Positions 3,942 to 9,979 of a stretch of DNA of 9,979 nt are shown piece after piece. A model generated the notes under the pieces. The model was not told the DNA's origin and did not search any database. It worked only from the letters and a program-made list of their open reading frames with translations. Numbering within the stretch: the first letter of the stretch is position 1; each line of letters starts with the position of its first letter. Both the position numbers and the translations under genes were made by a program. The stretch spans positions 1 to 9,979 of the forward strand of contig CAMPHX010000022.1 of the NCBI GenBank assembly GCA_946886085.1. The letters run 5' to 3'. The stretch comes from an uncultured Flavobacteriales bacterium. GTDB taxonomy: Bacteria; Bacteroidota; Bacteroidia; Flavobacteriales; Vicingaceae.

Positions 3942-3970
3942 TTGCTGTGGAATTTTAATCTTTATCTTTG
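3942..3970 (+). promoter_or_regulatory. Bacteroidota-type promoter for the membrane protein-hflX pair
   Basis: TTG at 3942-3944 is followed after 18 bases by TATCTTTG at 3963-3970, a full match to the TAnnTTTG -7 element of Bacteroidota. Transcription would begin roughly 7 bases downstream, leaving a leader of about 20 bases before the ATG at 3997. The in-frame GTG at 3970 overlaps the -7 box, so it cannot be the translation start. Confidence 0.6.
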
Positions 3971-3996
3971 TGCATCTAACTTTAAAACCTAACAAG

Positions 3997-4437
3997 ATGT
4001 ATAACGGATTAATTCATGCACACAGCGGACTAAGATGGTTGGTAGTGTTATTTTTGGTAATAGCTATCATTAAATCATTTTCAGGCTGGAAAAATAATAA
4101 GTCATTTGATAAATCAGATAATTTGATTGCTTTGCTTTTGCTTAGTTTTACTCACTTGCAATTTGTAATAGGGTTGGTGGTATATTTTATGAGTGGCAGA
4201 CTAGCAGCAATTGGAGAATCAATGAAAATTTCAGAGGCTCGTTTTTGGTCATTAGAACATGGCTTATTAATGATATTAGCCATTGCTTTAATTACTATTG
4301 GTAGAGTAAAATCTAAAAAAGCAGCAACAGATGTAATGAAACACAAAAAAGGAGTTGCTTTTTATTCTGTAGCATTTGTAATAATACTATGGGCAGGATT
4401 GGTAAAGCCTTATTTATTAGGAAAACCATGGTTTTAA
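3997..4437 (+). CDS. Small four-helix membrane protein, cytochrome b-like, function unknown
   Basis: The product is 146 aa when started at the ATG at 3997. An upstream in-frame GTG at 3970 would add nine residues but lies in the promoter, so it was rejected. Four hydrophobic segments are visible, at about residues 13-30, 43-65, 87-103 and 119-138. Histidines sit at or in the helices: H7 and H9 (LIHAHSGLRW), H53 (FTHLQF) and H88 (LEHGL). Such pairs in a four-helix bundle could bind haem, and similar Bacteroidota proteins are, as I recall, often labelled 'cytochrome b'; no haem-binding evidence exists here. The basic loop after helix 3 (KSKKAATDVMKHKK) suggests a cytoplasmic side. It lies 22 bp before the HflX gene on the same strand and the two are probably co-transcribed from the promoter at 3942-3970. 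The physiological role is unknown. Confidence 0.8.
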   Translation: MYNGLIHAHSGLRWLVVLFLVIAIIKSFSGWKNNKSFDKSDNLIALLLLSFTHLQFVIGLVVYFMSGRLAAIGESMKISEARFWSLEHGLLMILAIALITIGRVKSKKAATDVMKHKKGVAFYSVAFVIILWAGLVKPYLLGKPWF

Positions 4438-4459: not shown

Positions 4460-5662
4460 ATGATAAAAAAATCACACGACACACAAGATTTAAGTGTAGA
4501 GAGAACTGTTTTGGTCGGACTGATTATTAAAGGAGAGCAGGACGAAGAGCAGTTACAAGAATATTTGGACGAGTTGGCATTTTTAGCAGAAACTGCCGGA
4601 GCGGAAACTGTTAAAAGATTTACTCAAAAAGTAAGTCACCCCGATACTAAAACTTTTGTAGGAAAGGGAAAGCTGGAAGAAATAAGAACTTTCATTAAAG
4701 AAAATGAGGTAGGGTTAGTTATTTTTGATGATGAACTTTCTCCTTCTCAATTGAGAAATATTGAAAGAGAATTAGAATGTAAAATTTTAGATAGGAGTAA
4801 CTTAATTCTCGATATTTTTGCCTCTAGAGCACAAACTGCTCATGCTCGTGCACAGGTAGAGTTGGCTCAATTACAATATCTTTTACCTCGATTAACTAGA
4901 ATGTGGACGCACTTGGAGCGTCAGAAAGGTGGTATTGGTATGCGTGGTCCGGGTGAAACTCAAATAGAAACGGATAGACGTATTATTTTAGATAAAATAG
5001 CGCTGTTAAAAGAAAAGCTTAAAAAAATTGACAAGCAAAAAGCCACGCAAAGAAAACAGCGAGCTCAAATGGTAAGAGTTGCGTTGGTGGGTTATACCAA
5101 TGTTGGAAAATCTACTATTATGAATATGTTGAGTAAATCGGAAGTTTTTGCTGAAAACAAACTTTTTGCAACCTTAGATACTACCATCAGAAAAGTAGTA
5201 ATAGAAAACTTGCCTTTTTTACTTACCGATACGGTTGGATTCATCAGAAAATTGCCTCACCATTTAATAGAATCTTTTAAATCTACTTTAGATGAAGTAA
5301 AAGAAGCAGAAGTGTTGGTGCATGTGGTAGATATTTCTCATCCTGCATTTGAAGATCATATTCGTGTAGTTAATGAAACCTTACAAGATTTAAATGCTTT
5401 AGATAAACCAACTATTATGGTGTTTAATAAAATTGATGCATTTACTTATGTGAAAAAAGATGAGGATGATTTGTTGCCAAAAACCAGAGAAAATTACTCG
5501 TTGGAAGATTTAAAGAAAATGTGGATGAGCAGAGAAAGCGAAGTGCCTAGCGTTTATATTTCTGCGGAAAAGAAAATTAACATTGAGGAATTTAAACAAC
5601 TATTATACGATAACATTAAAAAAACGCATCTAAGCATTTATCCTAATCAGTTGTTGTATTAA
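4460..5662 (+). CDS. hflX: GTPase HflX
   Basis: This is a 400-aa Obg/HflX-superfamily GTPase. The N-terminal HflX domain (about 1-200) ends in the family signature GMRGPGETQIETDRR, from about residue 160, followed by a charged, probably coiled helix. The G domain shows G1 GYTNVGKS (211-218), G3 DTVGF (257-261), G4 NKID (323-326) and G5 SAEKK (368-372). Known HflX proteins bind the 50S subunit, split stalled or hibernating ribosomes, particularly under heat stress, and act in the cytoplasm. The length is close to other Bacteroidota HflX. The gene follows the membrane protein gene after 22 bp with no clear Shine-Dalgarno sequence of its own. Its last 20 bases overlap the 3' end of the convergent glycosyltransferase gene at 5643-6779, so no room for a terminator exists between them. 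Confidence 0.95.
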   Translation: MIKKSHDTQDLSVERTVLVGLIIKGEQDEEQLQEYLDELAFLAETAGAETVKRFTQKVSHPDTKTFVGKGKLEEIRTFIKENEVGLVIFDDELSPSQLRNIERELECKILDRSNLILDIFASRAQTAHARAQVELAQLQYLLPRLTRMWTHLERQKGGIGMRGPGETQIETDRRIILDKIALLKEKLKKIDKQKATQRKQRAQMVRVALVGYTNVGKSTIMNMLSKSEVFAENKLFATLDTTIRKVVIENLPFLLTDTVGFIRKLPHHLIESFKSTLDEVKEAEVLVHVVDISHPAFEDHIRVVNETLQDLNALDKPTIMVFNKIDAFTYVKKDEDDLLPKTRENYSLEDLKKMWMSRESEVPSVYISAEKKINIEEFKQLLYDNIKKTHLSIYPNQLLY

Positions 5663-6779
5663 TAGCATCAATCAATTTCAGGCAATTTTCCTGATTGGAA
5701 TAATCGGCTAACGATTCTTTTCGCTGTATTTTTATTGTTTCAATATCCATTTCTTGCTGAAAAAGAGATTTAATTTTGGTTTTAAAAGCTTCGTTACTAT
5801 CAGCAATTTCGCATAAATTAGTCAACGTTGTTCCTGCTAACATCGTTGGATTTGCTAAACAAAACCTTCCTTTAAATAATGAATGAAGCAGTTTTAATTT
5901 TAATCCTGTTGGTTGATGCGTGTAAAGCAAATTGATTTGAGCATTGCTAATCAATTCTTGCATGTTACTTTCGGTAGGATTGCCAACCAATTGAATGTTT
6001 TTGTATTTGTTTATTGTTGAACTTAATTTTTTTGTTGGATTTAATCCAGCAATAATTAAAGGAATGTCTAATGAATTGAAGATTTCATTGCAAATTACTA
6101 AAGCAGCAGCTTCATTTTCGGGGACACCCAAATTGCCATGATATAATACATAATCTCCTTTACCTTGCTGGATTTCAATTTTCTCTTCAGCATGAAAGCA
6201 TGGGATAAAAACTGTTTTGTTAGTGGGGTATTGGGTGTTAAAATAGTGTTCGTCTGTTTTAGAAACTACCAAAATAAGGTTGGCTTGCTGAACAATAGGT
6301 TCATATTTTTTGGCTTTCCATGCTTCAATAGAAAAATAGATTTTCTTAAAAAAATGTTGTTCTGCTTTGGCTAAATAGGCATAATAATCATGTTCAATAT
6401 TGGTGGCTCTTAGTATTGTAAAACGCTTTTTAAAAGTTTTGTCATTAAGTAGAAAACTGGTGTGGAGTCCTTCAAACAAAATAGGAAAATCATTTTTTAG
6501 TAAATTGCTTTTTAGCTCTGCGGCAACTCTCGATTTTACGATGTAAGGAGTTAAACTCAAAAATGAGAAAACACCTGTCTGTCGTTTGTAATAATGCACT
6601 GTTTCGCAATATTTTTCTAGTTTGGTTTGTTTTCCTCTGCCGTAATCAAAACAATGTAAGTGTACTTTAATACCATTTTTATGAAGGTGTTTTATTTTGT
6701 AAAAAACATCTATCACACCGCCATAATTTGCCGGATAAGGCACGTTAAAAGAAATGATATTTAGATGTGTTAAGTTCAA
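5643..6779 (-). CDS. GT-B fold glycosyltransferase, family 4-like
   Basis: The product is 378 aa with the two-domain layout of GT-B enzymes. The N-terminal acceptor domain begins with PYPANYGGV (14-22), the usual glycine-rich loop. NIEHDYYAY (127-135) is characteristic of a Bacteroidota GT4 subgroup. The C-terminal donor domain begins near YHGNLGVPENEAA (213-225), with IIAGLNP (242-248) and TGLKLKLLHSL (291-301), where GT4 enzymes place the nucleotide-sugar contacts. No signal peptide or membrane helix is evident, so it is presumably cytoplasmic or membrane-peripheral. Donor and acceptor cannot be read from sequence; cell-envelope polysaccharide or glycolipid synthesis is an inference from the family. 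It lies downstream of, and on the same strand as, a second GT4 gene (7048-8148), with 268 bp of repeat-filled DNA between them. The stop codon is inside the 3' end of hflX. Confidence 0.82.
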   Translation of the reverse strand: MNLTHLNIISFNVPYPANYGGVIDVFYKIKHLHKNGIKVHLHCFDYGRGKQTKLEKYCETVHYYKRQTGVFSFLSLTPYIVKSRVAAELKSNLLKNDFPILFEGLHTSFLLNDKTFKKRFTILRATNIEHDYYAYLAKAEQHFFKKIYFSIEAWKAKKYEPIVQQANLILVVSKTDEHYFNTQYPTNKTVFIPCFHAEEKIEIQQGKGDYVLYHGNLGVPENEAAALVICNEIFNSLDIPLIIAGLNPTKKLSSTINKYKNIQLVGNPTESNMQELISNAQINLLYTHQPTGLKLKLLHSLFKGRFCLANPTMLAGTTLTNLCEIADSNEAFKTKIKSLFQQEMDIETIKIQRKESLADYSNQENCLKLIDAINTTTD

Positions 6780-6806: not shown

Positions 6807-6840
6807 AAAAACACACCTCTGCCCCTCTCAAGAGGGGAAG
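6807..6840. repeat. Modular intergenic palindromic repeat, short form
   Basis: AAAAACACACCTCTG (6807-6821) is followed directly by CCCCTCT-CA-AGAGGGG (6822-6837). Read on the minus strand this matches the second hairpin plus the CAGAGGTGTGTTTT end of the element at 1073-1217, without the 42-base hairpin block found there. It lies 28 bp upstream of the 5643-6779 glycosyltransferase start. Confidence 0.7.
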
Positions 6841-7047: not shown

Positions 7048-8148
7048 CTATCTTTTATTAATCAACATTTCTTTAATTATTTCCGATTCTTTTTCCCAAT
7101 TCAATTCTTGTTTAGCTTTTGCTGAATTTACTTTCCAACTATTGAGTTGAGCTTCGTTTTTCAGCATTTCATTGAGTTGATTGGCTAATACTTTTGGGTC
7201 GGTACTTTGTGCAACTTCTCCAAGTTGATACTGTTTCACTAACGTACTCATTTCGGGTAAATCAGCTACTAAAACAGGTATTTCTGCGTGGATGTAATCA
7301 AACAATTTATTGGGCAATGCCAATTGGTAGTTTAAACCAACATTTTCTTCTAAACTTAATCCGATAGTTGCTTGTTGCGTATAGTTCTTGAGTTCTTGAT
7401 AAGGAATTTCTCCCAGCATTATTACTTTATCGCTTAAGTTGAGTTGCTCAATAAGTTGCTGAATAGAGGCAGAGATGTCGCCTTTTCCAATAAGTTGCAA
7501 GGTTGCTCCATCAATATACTGCATGGCTTTTACCATAGTTTCAATGCCTCGGTTTACATTTATCGCTCCCTGATAAAGTATGATTTTTTCTGATTTTTTT
7601 GAATGAGGACTAGACGCTTTTAAAAAAGGAACATTTCTTACCACTTTTACATCAATGTTATATTCGTTGCGATAGATTTCGGCAATGCCATTACACACTG
7701 TAATTACCTTGGTTAGTTGAGGTAAGATAAAGCGTTCTATTCTTTTCCAGAATGCCTGAATTTTCGGACGAGGAATTAGTTCCGGTACTTCGGTAAAATA
7801 TTCGTGACTATCAAAAATCAAGGTATTGTTTTTTATTTTTGAAGCTAAAAAACAAGCCGGTAGCGTATCTAAATCGTTATTCCAAATGAGCGATTGCTTA
7901 CTGAAAAGCAAGAAAAAAAACAATCGGATGTTGTAATTGGCATAGAAAAAAGCACCTTTACCAAACCATAGCTTAAACCTTTTGGTAGCATAACTTTGAG
8001 TTTGAAGCGGCAAACTATCTTTTTTTAACCTACCAACAAGTAGCACGTTGTAATTTAACGATAGCAACGTAGTACAAATTTTATGTGCCCGCTGGTCGGT
8101 GGTTAAATCGTTGGTTACGGCTACAATGGCTTTAGGTCTGTTGGTCAT
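7048..8148 (-). CDS. Glycosyltransferase family 4 protein
   Basis: The product is 366 aa from the ATG at 8148. A TTG six codons upstream (8166) is possible, but the conserved part begins at KAIVAVTNDLTTDQR, so the ATG is preferred. The GT-B fold is visible: an N-terminal domain with the nucleotide-fold start AIVAVTNDL, a hydrophobic tract NIRLFFFLLF (73-82) and DSHEYFTEVPEL (113-124); then a donor domain with ILYQGAINVNRGIETMV (190-206), LIGKGD (219-224) and LSLEENVGLNYQLALPNKLFDY (about 264-285), the site of the GT4 nucleotide-sugar motif. No signal peptide is seen. It is upstream of another GT4 gene on the same strand, which suggests shared work on an envelope glycan or O-antigen-like polymer, but no flippase, polymerase or sugar-nucleotide gene is visible to confirm it. 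No convincing promoter was found; a near-match TATTTTTA box exists upstream on the minus strand. Confidence 0.83.
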   Translation of the reverse strand: MTNRPKAIVAVTNDLTTDQRAHKICTTLLSLNYNVLLVGRLKKDSLPLQTQSYATKRFKLWFGKGAFFYANYNIRLFFFLLFSKQSLIWNNDLDTLPACFLASKIKNNTLIFDSHEYFTEVPELIPRPKIQAFWKRIERFILPQLTKVITVCNGIAEIYRNEYNIDVKVVRNVPFLKASSPHSKKSEKIILYQGAINVNRGIETMVKAMQYIDGATLQLIGKGDISASIQQLIEQLNLSDKVIMLGEIPYQELKNYTQQATIGLSLEENVGLNYQLALPNKLFDYIHAEIPVLVADLPEMSTLVKQYQLGEVAQSTDPKVLANQLNEMLKNEAQLNSWKVNSAKAKQELNWEKESEIIKEMLINKR

Positions 8149-8246
8149 TTGAGCGTTGACGTTCAAGGTTAAGTTTTTGGTAAAAATAAGATTTTTTTGA
8201 GGAGAAAATAAAATCAGATAGTTGTTACTAATGTTTTAGAAAGAGG

Positions 8247-8307
8247 TTTTCGTTTCAAGTAGTTTTAGCAATAATTTGAGACTTTATTGCTATTACTCAA
8301 CAGGTTT
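8247..8307. repeat. Repeat block A, copy 1
   Basis: This block begins TTTTCGTTTCAAG and ends ACTCAACAGGTTT. It matches the block at 8837-8896, which begins TTTTCCTTTCAAG and ends ACTTAACAGGTTT. The ends are well conserved and the middle is diverged. Here it directly precedes the left arm of the inverted repeat at 8299-8353, overlapping it by nine bases. Confidence 0.55.
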
Positions 8308-8353
8308 CCTCCTGAATGACCTTGGTTTGTTGTCATTCAGGAGGAAACTTGTT
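8299..8353. repeat. Strong inverted repeat upstream of the GIY-YIG gene
   Basis: GTTTCCTCCTGAATGAC (8304-8320) and its perfect reverse complement (8332-8348) are separated by 11 bases. The pairing extends to 8299/8353 with a single G-T mismatch, giving 21 of 22 pairs. The right arm GTCATTCAGGAGGAAAC is repeated exactly at 8739-8755 and in inverted, one-mismatch form at 8945-8960. It may also work as a bidirectional terminator between the diverging glycosyltransferase and nuclease genes. Confidence 0.85.
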
Positions 8354-8421
8354 TGTACAAGAGATAAAAATTATTTTTGTGTTAATATTGAATAAAGGCA
8401 GCTATTATCAAGCAATTAAAT
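8332..8421 (+). repeat. Direct repeat B, copy 1 (carries the GIY-YIG promoter)
   Basis: This block of about 90 bases runs from GTCATTCAGGAGGAAAC up to the nuclease start codon. It recurs at 8739-8838 with roughly 80% identity by eye and is nearly identical over its first 48 bases. The last shared bases, AATTAAAT, touch the ATG. Confidence 0.8.
8349..8379 (+). promoter_or_regulatory. Promoter of the GIY-YIG gene within repeat B
   Basis: TTG at 8349-8351 is followed after 20 bases by TATTTTTG at 8372-8379, matching the Bacteroidota TTG / TAnnTTTG pattern. The expected start of transcription is near 8386, leaving a leader of about 36 bases before the ATG at 8422. Confidence 0.6.
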
Positions 8422-8718
8422 ATGTCATCAAAAAACTTTTTTGTTTATATCACAACTAATCCAGGTAAGACAGTTCTTTATGTTGGTATTACCAATGATT
8501 TAAAAACAAGGATGAAACAACATTATGATAATAGAGGTAAAAAACAAACTTTTGCAGGAAGTTATTATTGTTATAAGTTAATTTACTATGAGAGGTATGG
8601 TGATGCTACTATGGCAATTGAAAGAGAAAAAGAAATAAAAGATTTAAGCAGAGAGAAAAAAGAAAAGCTAATTGCAACAGAAAATCCAAGATGGAATAGA
8701 ATTGAGTTTTATGATTAA
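8422..8718 (+). CDS. Small GIY-YIG nuclease domain protein
   Basis: This 98-aa protein is a stand-alone GIY-YIG domain (COG2827-like, related to the UvrC N-terminal nuclease). The motif appears as VYI (8-10) and YVG (20-22). Expected active-site residues are all present: Y9, Y20, R30 in TRMKQH, and E67 in MAIEREKEIK as metal ligand. The C-terminal half is rich in Lys and Glu and helical; no additional DNA-binding domain is visible. Members of this group are predicted DNA endonucleases with mostly unknown roles. The gene is complete and starts at an ATG exactly at the end of repeat B. Its promoter lies in that repeat, and a second copy of the repeat begins 20 bp after its stop. This arrangement suggests that it belongs to a small repeat-associated mobile or selfish unit; that is inference. 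A host DNA-repair function is the alternative. Confidence 0.88.
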   Translation: MSSKNFFVYITTNPGKTVLYVGITNDLKTRMKQHYDNRGKKQTFAGSYYCYKLIYYERYGDATMAIEREKEIKDLSREKKEKLIATENPRWNRIEFYD

Positions 8719-8738
8719 TTGTTTTCCCTCACCTTCTT

Positions 8739-8838
8739 GTCATTCAGGAGGAAACTTGTTTGAACAAAGAGATAAAGATTATTTTTGTACTGATGTTTAA
8801 TAGAGGTAGTTAGTTAATAATCAAGGATAAATTAAATT
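8739..8838 (+). repeat. Direct repeat B, copy 2
   Basis: This is the second copy of 8332-8421, starting with the identical 17-mer GTCATTCAGGAGGAAAC. It keeps a promoter-like pair: TTG at 8756-8758, 21 bases, TATTTTTG at 8780-8787. Where copy 1 reads into the nuclease ATG, copy 2 reads into block A, so the promoter has no gene of its own and points at the 3' end of the asparaginase gene. Confidence 0.75.
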
Positions 8839-8896
8839 TTCCTTTCAAGGTTACTTATTTATAGTTAGGCACATTTTGCCACTACTTAACAGGTTT
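8837..8896. repeat. Repeat block A, copy 2
   Basis: It matches 8247-8307, with conserved outer segments TTTTC-TTTCAAG and ACT-AACAGGTTT. After it come about 48 AT-rich bases with ATTGAT repeats before the right inverted end of the unit at 8945. Confidence 0.5.
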
Positions 8897-8972
8897 ATCA
8901 ATGTCTTTAATATTGATTTGATAATGTATTGATGATACTTCGTATTCCTCCTAAATGACAGTTAGAAAAAAT

Positions 8973-9979
8973 TCACTCCACCAACTCTCCTCTAAGGGAT
9001 TGCTGCATGGATGATTTAGTTTCATCAAGTGGTAGGTTTTTGCCTAATAAGTACATCAATTTGGTAATTGTAGCTTCAAAGGTTAAGTCTTTGCCGCCAA
9101 CAACACCAATTCTTTTAAGTGCCGAGCTTGTTTCGTATTTGCCTTGTTCTACGCTTCCGCTAATGCACTGCGAAATGTTTATTACTAACACATCTTTTTT
9201 GATTGCTTTTTGTAAACACTCAATAAACCAATCAGCGGTGGTGCTGTTTCCTGCTCCAAAAGTTTCTATTACCAAGGCTTTTAAATTCGGAATGGAAACA
9301 ATGGCTTCTACAATATGTTGGTTAATTCCCGGAAACATCTTTAAAGTAGCGATATTGGTATCCAACTCATAATGAAACTGTGTGGGAGCATCAAAATCAG
9401 GTTGTAAAAGATGTTGTGAGTTAAATTTTAAGTTTACTCCGGCTTCGGCTAAAAAAGGATAGTTGGGCGATTGAAAAGCTTCAAATTGCTCGGCACTTAC
9501 TTTGGTAGATCGGTTTCCTCGGTATAAATTGTATTCAAAATAAATAGCCACTTCAGGCACTAACATTTTTCCGTTAAATTTTGAAGCTGCAATTTCTATA
9601 GCCGAAAGTAAATTTTCTTTAGCATCTGTTCTTACCGCTCCAATAGGTAATTGAGAACCAGTAAGAATAATAGGTTTAGTAAGGTTTTCTGTCATAAAAC
9701 TTAATACAGAAGCAGTGTAAGCCATGGTATCTGAACCATGTAACACCACAAAACCATCATAGTTGTTATAGTTTTCTTCAATAATCTTACATAGCTTTAT
9801 CCAATGTTGCGGATTAATGTCTGATGAATCTATGGGGTGTTCAAAAGAAATGGTATTTATAGTGGCGTTAATTTTTTTTAGTTCAGGAATCTCATGCAAT
9901 AAGGCATCAAAATTAAAAGAAACCAATGCTCCCGTAATTTTATCCTGAACCATTCCTATGGTACCGCCTGTATATATTA
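8973..9979 (-). CDS. ansA: Type I L-asparaginase, 5' end beyond the window
   Basis: The reading frame is open to the edge of the window. The first visible residues are IYTGGTIGMVQD, which hold the nucleophile threonine of the TGGTIG motif (T3 in visible numbering; the second conserved Thr is T6). A methionine at 9953 lies after this motif and cannot be the true start. The 334 visible residues also show HGSDTMAYTAS (about 80-90), where HGTDT is usual, and TGSQLPIGAVRTDAKEN (about 107-123) with catalytic K120. It hydrolyses L-asparagine to aspartate and ammonia. The absence of a signal sequence cannot be checked because the N-terminus is cut, but type I enzymes are cytoplasmic and only about 4-8 residues should be missing. 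The neighbouring GIY-YIG unit converges on its 3' end. Confidence 0.93.
   Translation of the reverse strand, partial: IYTGGTIGMVQDKITGALVSFNFDALLHEIPELKKINATINTISFEHPIDSSDINPQHWIKLCKIIEENYNNYDGFVVLHGSDTMAYTASVLSFMTENLTKPIILTGSQLPIGAVRTDAKENLLSAIEIAASKFNGKMLVPEVAIYFEYNLYRGNRSTKVSAEQFEAFQSPNYPFLAEAGVNLKFNSQHLLQPDFDAPTQFHYELDTNIATLKMFPGINQHIVEAIVSIPNLKALVIETFGAGNSTTADWFIECLQKAIKKDVLVINISQCISGSVEQGKYETSSALKRIGVVGGKDLTFEATITKLMYLLGKNLPLDETKSSMQQSLRGELVE

Follow-up and report, generated by a model that had tools for sequence, protein, structure and literature searches.

A small GIY-YIG nuclease and the short GTC-tagged palindromic repeats around it: a probable repeat family with its own enzyme

Described repeat families and their enzymes

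Ssn is reportedly a published family of GIY-YIG nucleases with target repeats (NTS), found in Neisseria and elsewhere, whose homologues are said to have differing target sequences and to cut the single-stranded repeat site-specifically; in Neisseria the enzyme reportedly cuts incoming ssDNA at these sites, modulating both DNA uptake and nearby recombination. The locus considered here lies in the window, by which is meant the whole stretch of 9,979 nt that was analysed, and resembles Ssn in that a small GIY-YIG nuclease is tied to a dispersed repeat. Cognate repeats both around the gene and dispersed, a feature likewise ascribed to Ssn, are found here, although the two sister genomes, G001 and G002, have few copies (6 and 8). 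Unlike in Ssn as reported, the nuclease gene and its repeats make up a block, with two inner segments termed B and A, that is present or absent as a unit; the carriers are Bacteroidota and metagenome-assembled genomes (MAGs) of KSB1 and Calditrichota rather than Neisseria, and cutting is putative here. The Neisseria precedent makes doubtful the remark, in the initial annotation of this DNA, that no well-described system of this form was known.

That remark is further weakened by the CGTC/TGTC-tagged REPs, which, according to Di Nocera et al. (2013, PMC3733652), seem to be without a transposase of their own, have Bacteroidetes among their listed hosts and include CGTC-1 of the Neisseriae, which is dRS3. 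As described there, tagged REPs share with the window repeats a palindromic body, multiple copies, a GTC tag beside AT and dimers of opposite orientation; they differ in stem length (8–9 bp as against 3 bp in a single window repeat) and in being apparently without transposase, where the window repeats have a nuclease attached (PMC3733652). Among the literature matches listed, no link of a GIY-YIG nuclease to GTC-tagged REPs was found. The neisserial intergenic mosaic elements (NIME) are described in PMC3898611 as arrays of dRS3 and RS units spanning 200–2700 bp, with repeats of about 20 bp and a dRS3 pattern of ATTCCC(N8)GGGAAT. The window array also has unit blocks with repeats of about 20 bp, but differs from the NIME (PMC3898611) in carrying a nuclease gene inside and in occurring in other phyla.

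In the REP/RAYT systems (REPtrons, REPINs), as here, the genes of one enzyme family have their own short palindromes on either side, and dimers lacking the enzyme lie elsewhere; the likeness that had been drawn to these systems holds in outline. There the enzyme is an HUH tyrosine transposase and the tag is GTAG, whereas the window system has a GIY-YIG enzyme and a GTC tag; its repeat-flanked protein belongs to PF01541, not to the HUH transposases (PF01797) by which REP/RAYT is recognised.

The window array and its units in relatives

The array sits between a glycosyltransferase gene and an asparaginase gene, and the nearest relatives of the window DNA are Flavobacteriales MAGs. Its features are as follows.

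8216..8970, no strand: whole array; only 2 nt in relative G003 (L148)
8247..8303, + strand: block A1, tail of a preceding unit; similar to A2 of relative L001 and to A2 of the window
8304..8320, − strand: exact repeat core, inverse, by motif match; carries GGTC
8321..8331, no strand: 11-nt spacer between the facing cores
8332..8348, + strand: exact repeat core, by motif match
8327..8421, + strand: block B1 including this core; 84.8% over 79 nt to B2
8422..8718, + strand: GIY-YIG nuclease, 98 aa; PF01541 (E 4e-15), AF2 model and fold matches
8734..8838, + strand: block B2 including the exact core at 8739–8755; similar to B1
8837..8896, + strand: block A2; B2 and A2 together align with solo units
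8897..8942, no strand: 46-nt segment from A2 to the right core; present in G010 (L147), absent in L001 and L002
8943..8959, − strand: degenerate repeat core with 3 mismatches, at the right end of the array

The 17-nt core GTCATTCAGGAGGAAAC is present in three exact copies (+8332–8348, +8739–8755 and −8304–8320) and in one copy with 3 mismatches (−8943–8959). At up to 3 mismatches the window holds five matches, where 0.01 is expected and 0 of 200 shuffles gave as many; the fifth, at +6441 with 3 mismatches, lies within an ORF and is probably due to chance. The matched direct and inverted repeats which the initial annotation had described around the nuclease are thereby confirmed as genuine, far above chance level. 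Its description of every block as bordered by the core stands for the three exact cores; the right core is degenerate and lies 46 nt (8897–8942) from A2. Its pairing of blocks is clear for B (8327–8404 against 8734–8812, 84.8% identity over 79 nt, E 1e-18) and weaker for A, where similarity inside the window is confined to 21 nt at 86% and is supported by relative L001, whose A2 matches the window A1 at 75% over 77 nt (E 3e-6).

In L001 (Flavobacteriales BRH_c54) the order is repeat-B-nuclease-A-repeat, the very plan that had been put forward for a complete unit, and nuclease-free repeat-B-A-repeat units of about 167–195 bp are found elsewhere in G001, G002 and G003; the array is therefore composed of units, with the gene in one of them. 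The basic unit consists of two facing repeats enclosing B and A, and it occurs in copies with and without the nuclease gene; B2 and A2 of the window align at 70–72% over 163 nt with the solo units L082, L083 and L086. L002 (UBA2669) has kept the second B, as in the window, and its facing cores are separated by an 11-nt spacer whose sequence is exactly the L001 spacer in reverse complement. Such an inversion is as expected from events at an extruded or single-stranded palindrome, and template switching would give it equally.

Taken together, the facing cores (8299–8353) are predicted to fold as ssDNA into a 22-bp stem with an 11-nt loop (−20.8 kcal/mol, z −8.0), and a single window repeat folds weakly (3-bp stem, loop of 5, −0.4 kcal/mol). 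The TGTCAT tag at 8331 and 8738 agrees with the CGTC/TGTC-then-AT feature of the tagged REPs, and dimers of opposite orientation are formed by the facing pair of the window, by the solo units and by repeats of Hymenobacter G071; the stem of 8–9 bp with a loop of 4–5 typical of CGTC/TGTC-tagged REPs is not attained by single window repeats. In G071, close pairs comprise 48 of the 69 listed repeats, with one facing arrangement in 24/24 pairs and 72–74 nt in 15/24.

As to whether a relative has an empty site, G003 provides one: its blastn matches to window positions 7500–9979 leave off at 8215 and start again at 8971, 2 nt lying in between, the flanks are 93–95% identical to the window, and the junction lacks the core. 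The nuclease gene is retained at this site in G001 and G002; G010 has a differently arranged piece near a contig end, and the contig of G011 ends at the array site. The L084 unit of G002, another solo unit, is missing from the same site in all five relatives with usable flanks (G001, G003, G009, G010 and G011), out of eight genomes searched; of the other three, G014 matched at a single flank and G012 and G013 at none. Clean insertion boundaries were not found for the L084 unit (about 279 nt in G002 versus about 31 nt in G001 and G003). No target-site duplication was recognised at any of the sites.

The window nuclease has an uninterrupted reading frame (8422–8718, 98 aa) and matches PF01541 at 56.3 bits, with a cut-off of 22.6 and E 4e-15. 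The catalytic residues of GIY-YIG nucleases are two Tyr, Arg, His, Glu and Asn; Y9, Y20, R30, H34, E69 and N88 are invariant in 30/30 aligned sequences, chosen from 120 listed matches. The AF2 model (pLDDT 91.1) has UPF0213 1zg2 as its top Foldseek match (E 5e-5, TM 0.56), followed by weaker matches to Slx1 entries (E 0.02–0.07, probability 0.97–1.00). In sequence and fold the protein thus resembles the small UPF0213 GIY-YIG proteins (PDB 1zg2, 1ywl), for which COG2827 is presumably the label; the matched entries make no mention of repeats. A role in anti-phage defence was considered and set aside, PADLOC matches being weak (best E 0.002). At least five PF01541 genes are present in G002, and the three nucleases examined there adjoin three different repeat types.

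Several other features of the window were recorded. An imperfect palindrome at 2275–2394 (58-nt arms, 71% complementary, 4-nt loop) sits between epimerase and aldehyde dehydrogenase genes, and a 25-nt inverted repeat (1144–1168 and 6815–6839, 84%) perhaps represents another dispersed repeat family. The proteins encoded at 3970–4437 and 5643–6779 have no Pfam match at E 0.001.

Nucleases and repeats across loci and genomes

A scan of genome contigs gave 251 nuclease-encoding stretches, and the best 80 were retained; together with the window they make 81 loci, of which one was too short, so that the motif counts cover the window and 79 of the 80 relatives. By a GTCAT motif rule framed after the flanks had been viewed, a repeat lies on both sides within about 200 nt at 57/80 nuclease loci versus 4/871 other ORFs, and on at least one side at 76/80 versus 74/871, the control ORFs being taken from the same loci at least 1 kb away with a downstream stretch of 200 nt, as against 230 nt for nucleases. 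The tie between the nuclease and its own palindromes, proposed from the window alone, is borne out by these counts. Flank inverted-repeat scores of at least 12, a cut set after the scores had been seen, were obtained at 66 of 79 evaluable loci (one of the 80 was not evaluable) versus 26/526 shifted controls. When loci from relatives of G002 were added and the duplicates L042/L092 and L045/L093 dropped, 96 of 111 loci had one or more covarying repeats within 500 nt and 15 had none. The matched nuclease stretches translate without a stop in 109 of 113 cases and contain stops in four; the 113 include two duplicates, one of them (L093) covering the still-open portion of the disrupted gene L045.

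Some flanks and some other GIY-YIG genes showed further arrangements. The nuclease flanks of L007 and L008 hold a second palindrome within the repeat loop, for example GTCATTCAGAAGG...CCCGGGGAACCT (nested palindromic inserts), and in L049 and L050 the nuclease lies between the two arms of very long inverted repeats (124 and 101 nt). Another GIY-YIG gene forms tandem arrays in L123 (942–5583, G020; 10.2 units of 457 bp) and L124 (718–3627, G024; 7.8 units of 379 bp), both at the 3' half of a tRNA-Met(cat) gene, with units that repeat the T-arm and acceptor end of the tRNA, as if insertions kept restoring it. When 46 genomes of the order were searched for the junction pattern of the G024 tRNA array, G024 was the only one to contain it.

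The repeats covary within their stems. Under a rule framed after the flanks had been read (GTCAT-N1N2 ... N2'N1'-A(A/C/T)CT), the stem dinucleotides are complementary in 283 of 361 repeats from 111 distinct loci, where 1000 shuffles gave a mean of 67.4 and a maximum of 91; away from nucleases the figure is 55/181. On a tree of 107 nucleases, 93 of them labelled, with few columns, many unresolved forks and a contribution from near kin, the dominant dinucleotide requires 28 changes versus 49.4 when shuffled, a value as low being reached in 0/200. Nuclease branches go with repeat types; the GC and CT types, each taken alone, are not clustered on the tree. Before the duplicates were dropped, the counts were 287/367 repeats, 98/113 loci and 29 changes versus 50.8. 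A 16-row clade around the window, drawn from Flavobacteriales, Cytophagales, KSB1, Calditrichota and Deferribacteres records with TC (12), GC (3) and AC (1) repeats, was starred on the first tree and lost its star after the two duplicate loci were dropped; on the duplicate-free tree the starred set around the window consists of the window, L001 and L002 only.

Copy number varies widely among genomes. At up to one mismatch the 16-mer GTCATTCAGGAGGAA is present in 6 copies in G001, 8 in G002, 5 in G003 and 1 in G008, which has a nuclease, and in 60, 40, 84 and 146 copies in G004, G005, G006 and G007; the reversed GTCATTCAGGAGGAA control gave 0–1 copies per genome. Within a set of 60 relatives of G002, itself included, seven genomes carry at least four copies, and five of these seven are among the seven with a nuclease at E <1e-30. 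The other two, G009 and G010, have 6 core copies each without a nuclease match. In G011, which has 7 core copies, the best nuclease adjoins another repeat type. A core confined to this locus, a core widespread without association to GIY-YIG genes, and orthologous nucleases lacking the repeats were the outcomes that the initial annotation had set against its own reading, and none of them occurred.

The fadJ–thiolase site of Pontibacter allows the block to be followed at one position, as the gap between the two conserved genes was read in 50/50 genomes. A full-length nuclease is present at 11 sites, with repeats in 11/11 and an internal stop in two (G087, G092); one site has a partial nuclease with repeats, four have repeats or half-repeats without a nuclease, and two are otherwise. 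The remaining 32 have short gaps (≤130 nt) without a nuclease, and among these repeats are found in 0/32 and the repeat core is absent in 32/32. Nuclease and repeats thus come or are missing together, as a single block, at defined sites. Several further Pontibacter nuclease copies carry stops.

On a quick tree of the flanking genes, where whole-locus exchange would add to the counts, the state of block or repeats versus none changes at least 14 times among the 50 species, with 12 changes forced by starred branches, and that of the full nuclease alone changes 11 times, 10 of them forced; neither of these two characters is clustered on the tree. Divergence of the Pontibacter nucleases tracks that of their flanks (r 0.73, 0/2000 permutations), which disfavours recent insertion, and all 11 lie in a single orientation. 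The block thus behaves as a unit, here mostly via loss or whole-locus exchange; a block that was present early and has often been lost, or one exchanged with its entire locus, fits the pattern better than fresh insertion.

In L159, L162 and L181, three of the four sites with repeats or half-repeats but no nuclease, a different palindromic repeat (CGGATTTGCAATCCG type) lies between GTCAT-type repeats or half-repeats in place of the nuclease, and L202 has a CGGATTTGCAATCCG-type repeat without GTCAT repeats; cargo between GTCAT-type repeats seems exchangeable. Median repeat copies are 9 in the 22 genomes with a close nuclease versus 4.5 in the 28 without (one-sided p 0.024, uncorrected for kinship), so that the link of copy number to nuclease presence over the 50 genomes is modest; the idea that nuclease presence drives copy number was dropped on the size of this difference. 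One genome, G096, has 50 repeat copies and no nuclease match of at least 138 bits.

Interpretation and alternative explanations

As enzyme-plus-repeat blocks are present or absent in one piece, they probably represent a repeat family with its own enzyme. Described more closely, the family likely consists of short hairpin repeats with a (T/C)GTC tag, served by a dedicated GIY-YIG nuclease of the Ssn type. By analogy, the window system fits best as an instance of the pairing of a GIY-YIG Ssn nuclease with target repeats; we take the window nuclease to be of the Ssn type and to target a repeat like the dRS3 of Neisseria, and we regard the array as corresponding to a neisserial intergenic mosaic element. 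The nuclease would recognise the repeat, folded or single-stranded, during replication or DNA uptake and would nick or cut it near the GTC tag, and the ensuing repair or recombination could then copy, swap or delete units between repeats.

The nuclease may instead serve the host, cutting incoming ssDNA at the repeats and tuning uptake and recombination beside them, with the spread of repeats as a by-product. This matches the role ascribed to Neisseria Ssn, and both the open frames in 109/113 stretches and the gene kept at the window's site in G001 and G002 speak for it; the at least 14 state changes at one site among 50 species are unlike a stable host gene, and stops occur in 4/113 stretches and in several further Pontibacter copies, so that such a role is considered unlikely. 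A homing endonuclease, to which the initial annotation had also likened the enzyme, would have the repeats merely as its target and the gene inserted into repeat dimers, and in L001 the gene is located between the B and the A of a single unit, in the manner of an insertion into a solo unit. However, the empty sites of G003 and of the 32/32 short-gap Pontibacter genomes are without the core, the presumed target, and homing at those sites is therefore unsupported; repeats and gene also go missing together. That likeness is not supported, and homing is regarded as distinctly improbable.

Chance capture of the nuclease as a passenger, with the repeats moved by another enzyme such as a RAYT or an IS, draws on the presence of PF01797 proteins in 12/13 genomes searched. 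Repeats were found on both sides of 0/30 and on one side of 1/30 PF01797 (IS200/RAYT-type) loci, taken from a longer match list and read over stretches 150–700 nt from the locus middle, some cut by contig ends; RAYT/IS200 was accordingly rejected as the repeat partner. As repeat type is also predicted by nuclease branch, and repeats are enriched at 57/80 nucleases, chance capture appears very improbable. Still harder to credit is that the repeats are plain intergenic hairpins (terminators, for instance, or regulatory RNA) with no connection to the adjacent gene: they do sit between genes, but repeats on both sides are rare at other ORFs of the same loci (4/871), B and A recur with the repeats elsewhere, and gene and repeats are absent together. 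The preferred reading remains that of a tagged hairpin repeat family with a dedicated nuclease.

Beyond this family, it is plausible, at slightly less than even odds, that the whole super-family of (C/T)GTC-tagged REPs has its missing dedicated enzymes in small GIY-YIG nucleases, which would form a second, RAYT-independent class of REP system. This general link to GTC-tagged REPs, together with block-wise gain and loss, may go beyond what is in print. Through the strong pairing of nuclease and repeat, with repeat type following nuclease branch and presence or absence going by blocks, the CGTC-tagged repeats, reported in 2013 as apparently transposase-less (PMC3733652), obtain a named candidate enzyme. 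The matched enzyme–repeat pairs lend themselves to in vitro swaps, and the 50 Pontibacter genomes provide a natural series of gain and loss at one site. On the general reading, if true, a structure- and site-specific nuclease, not a transposase, would drive the turnover of intergenic hairpin units and cassettes and the exchange of their cargo.
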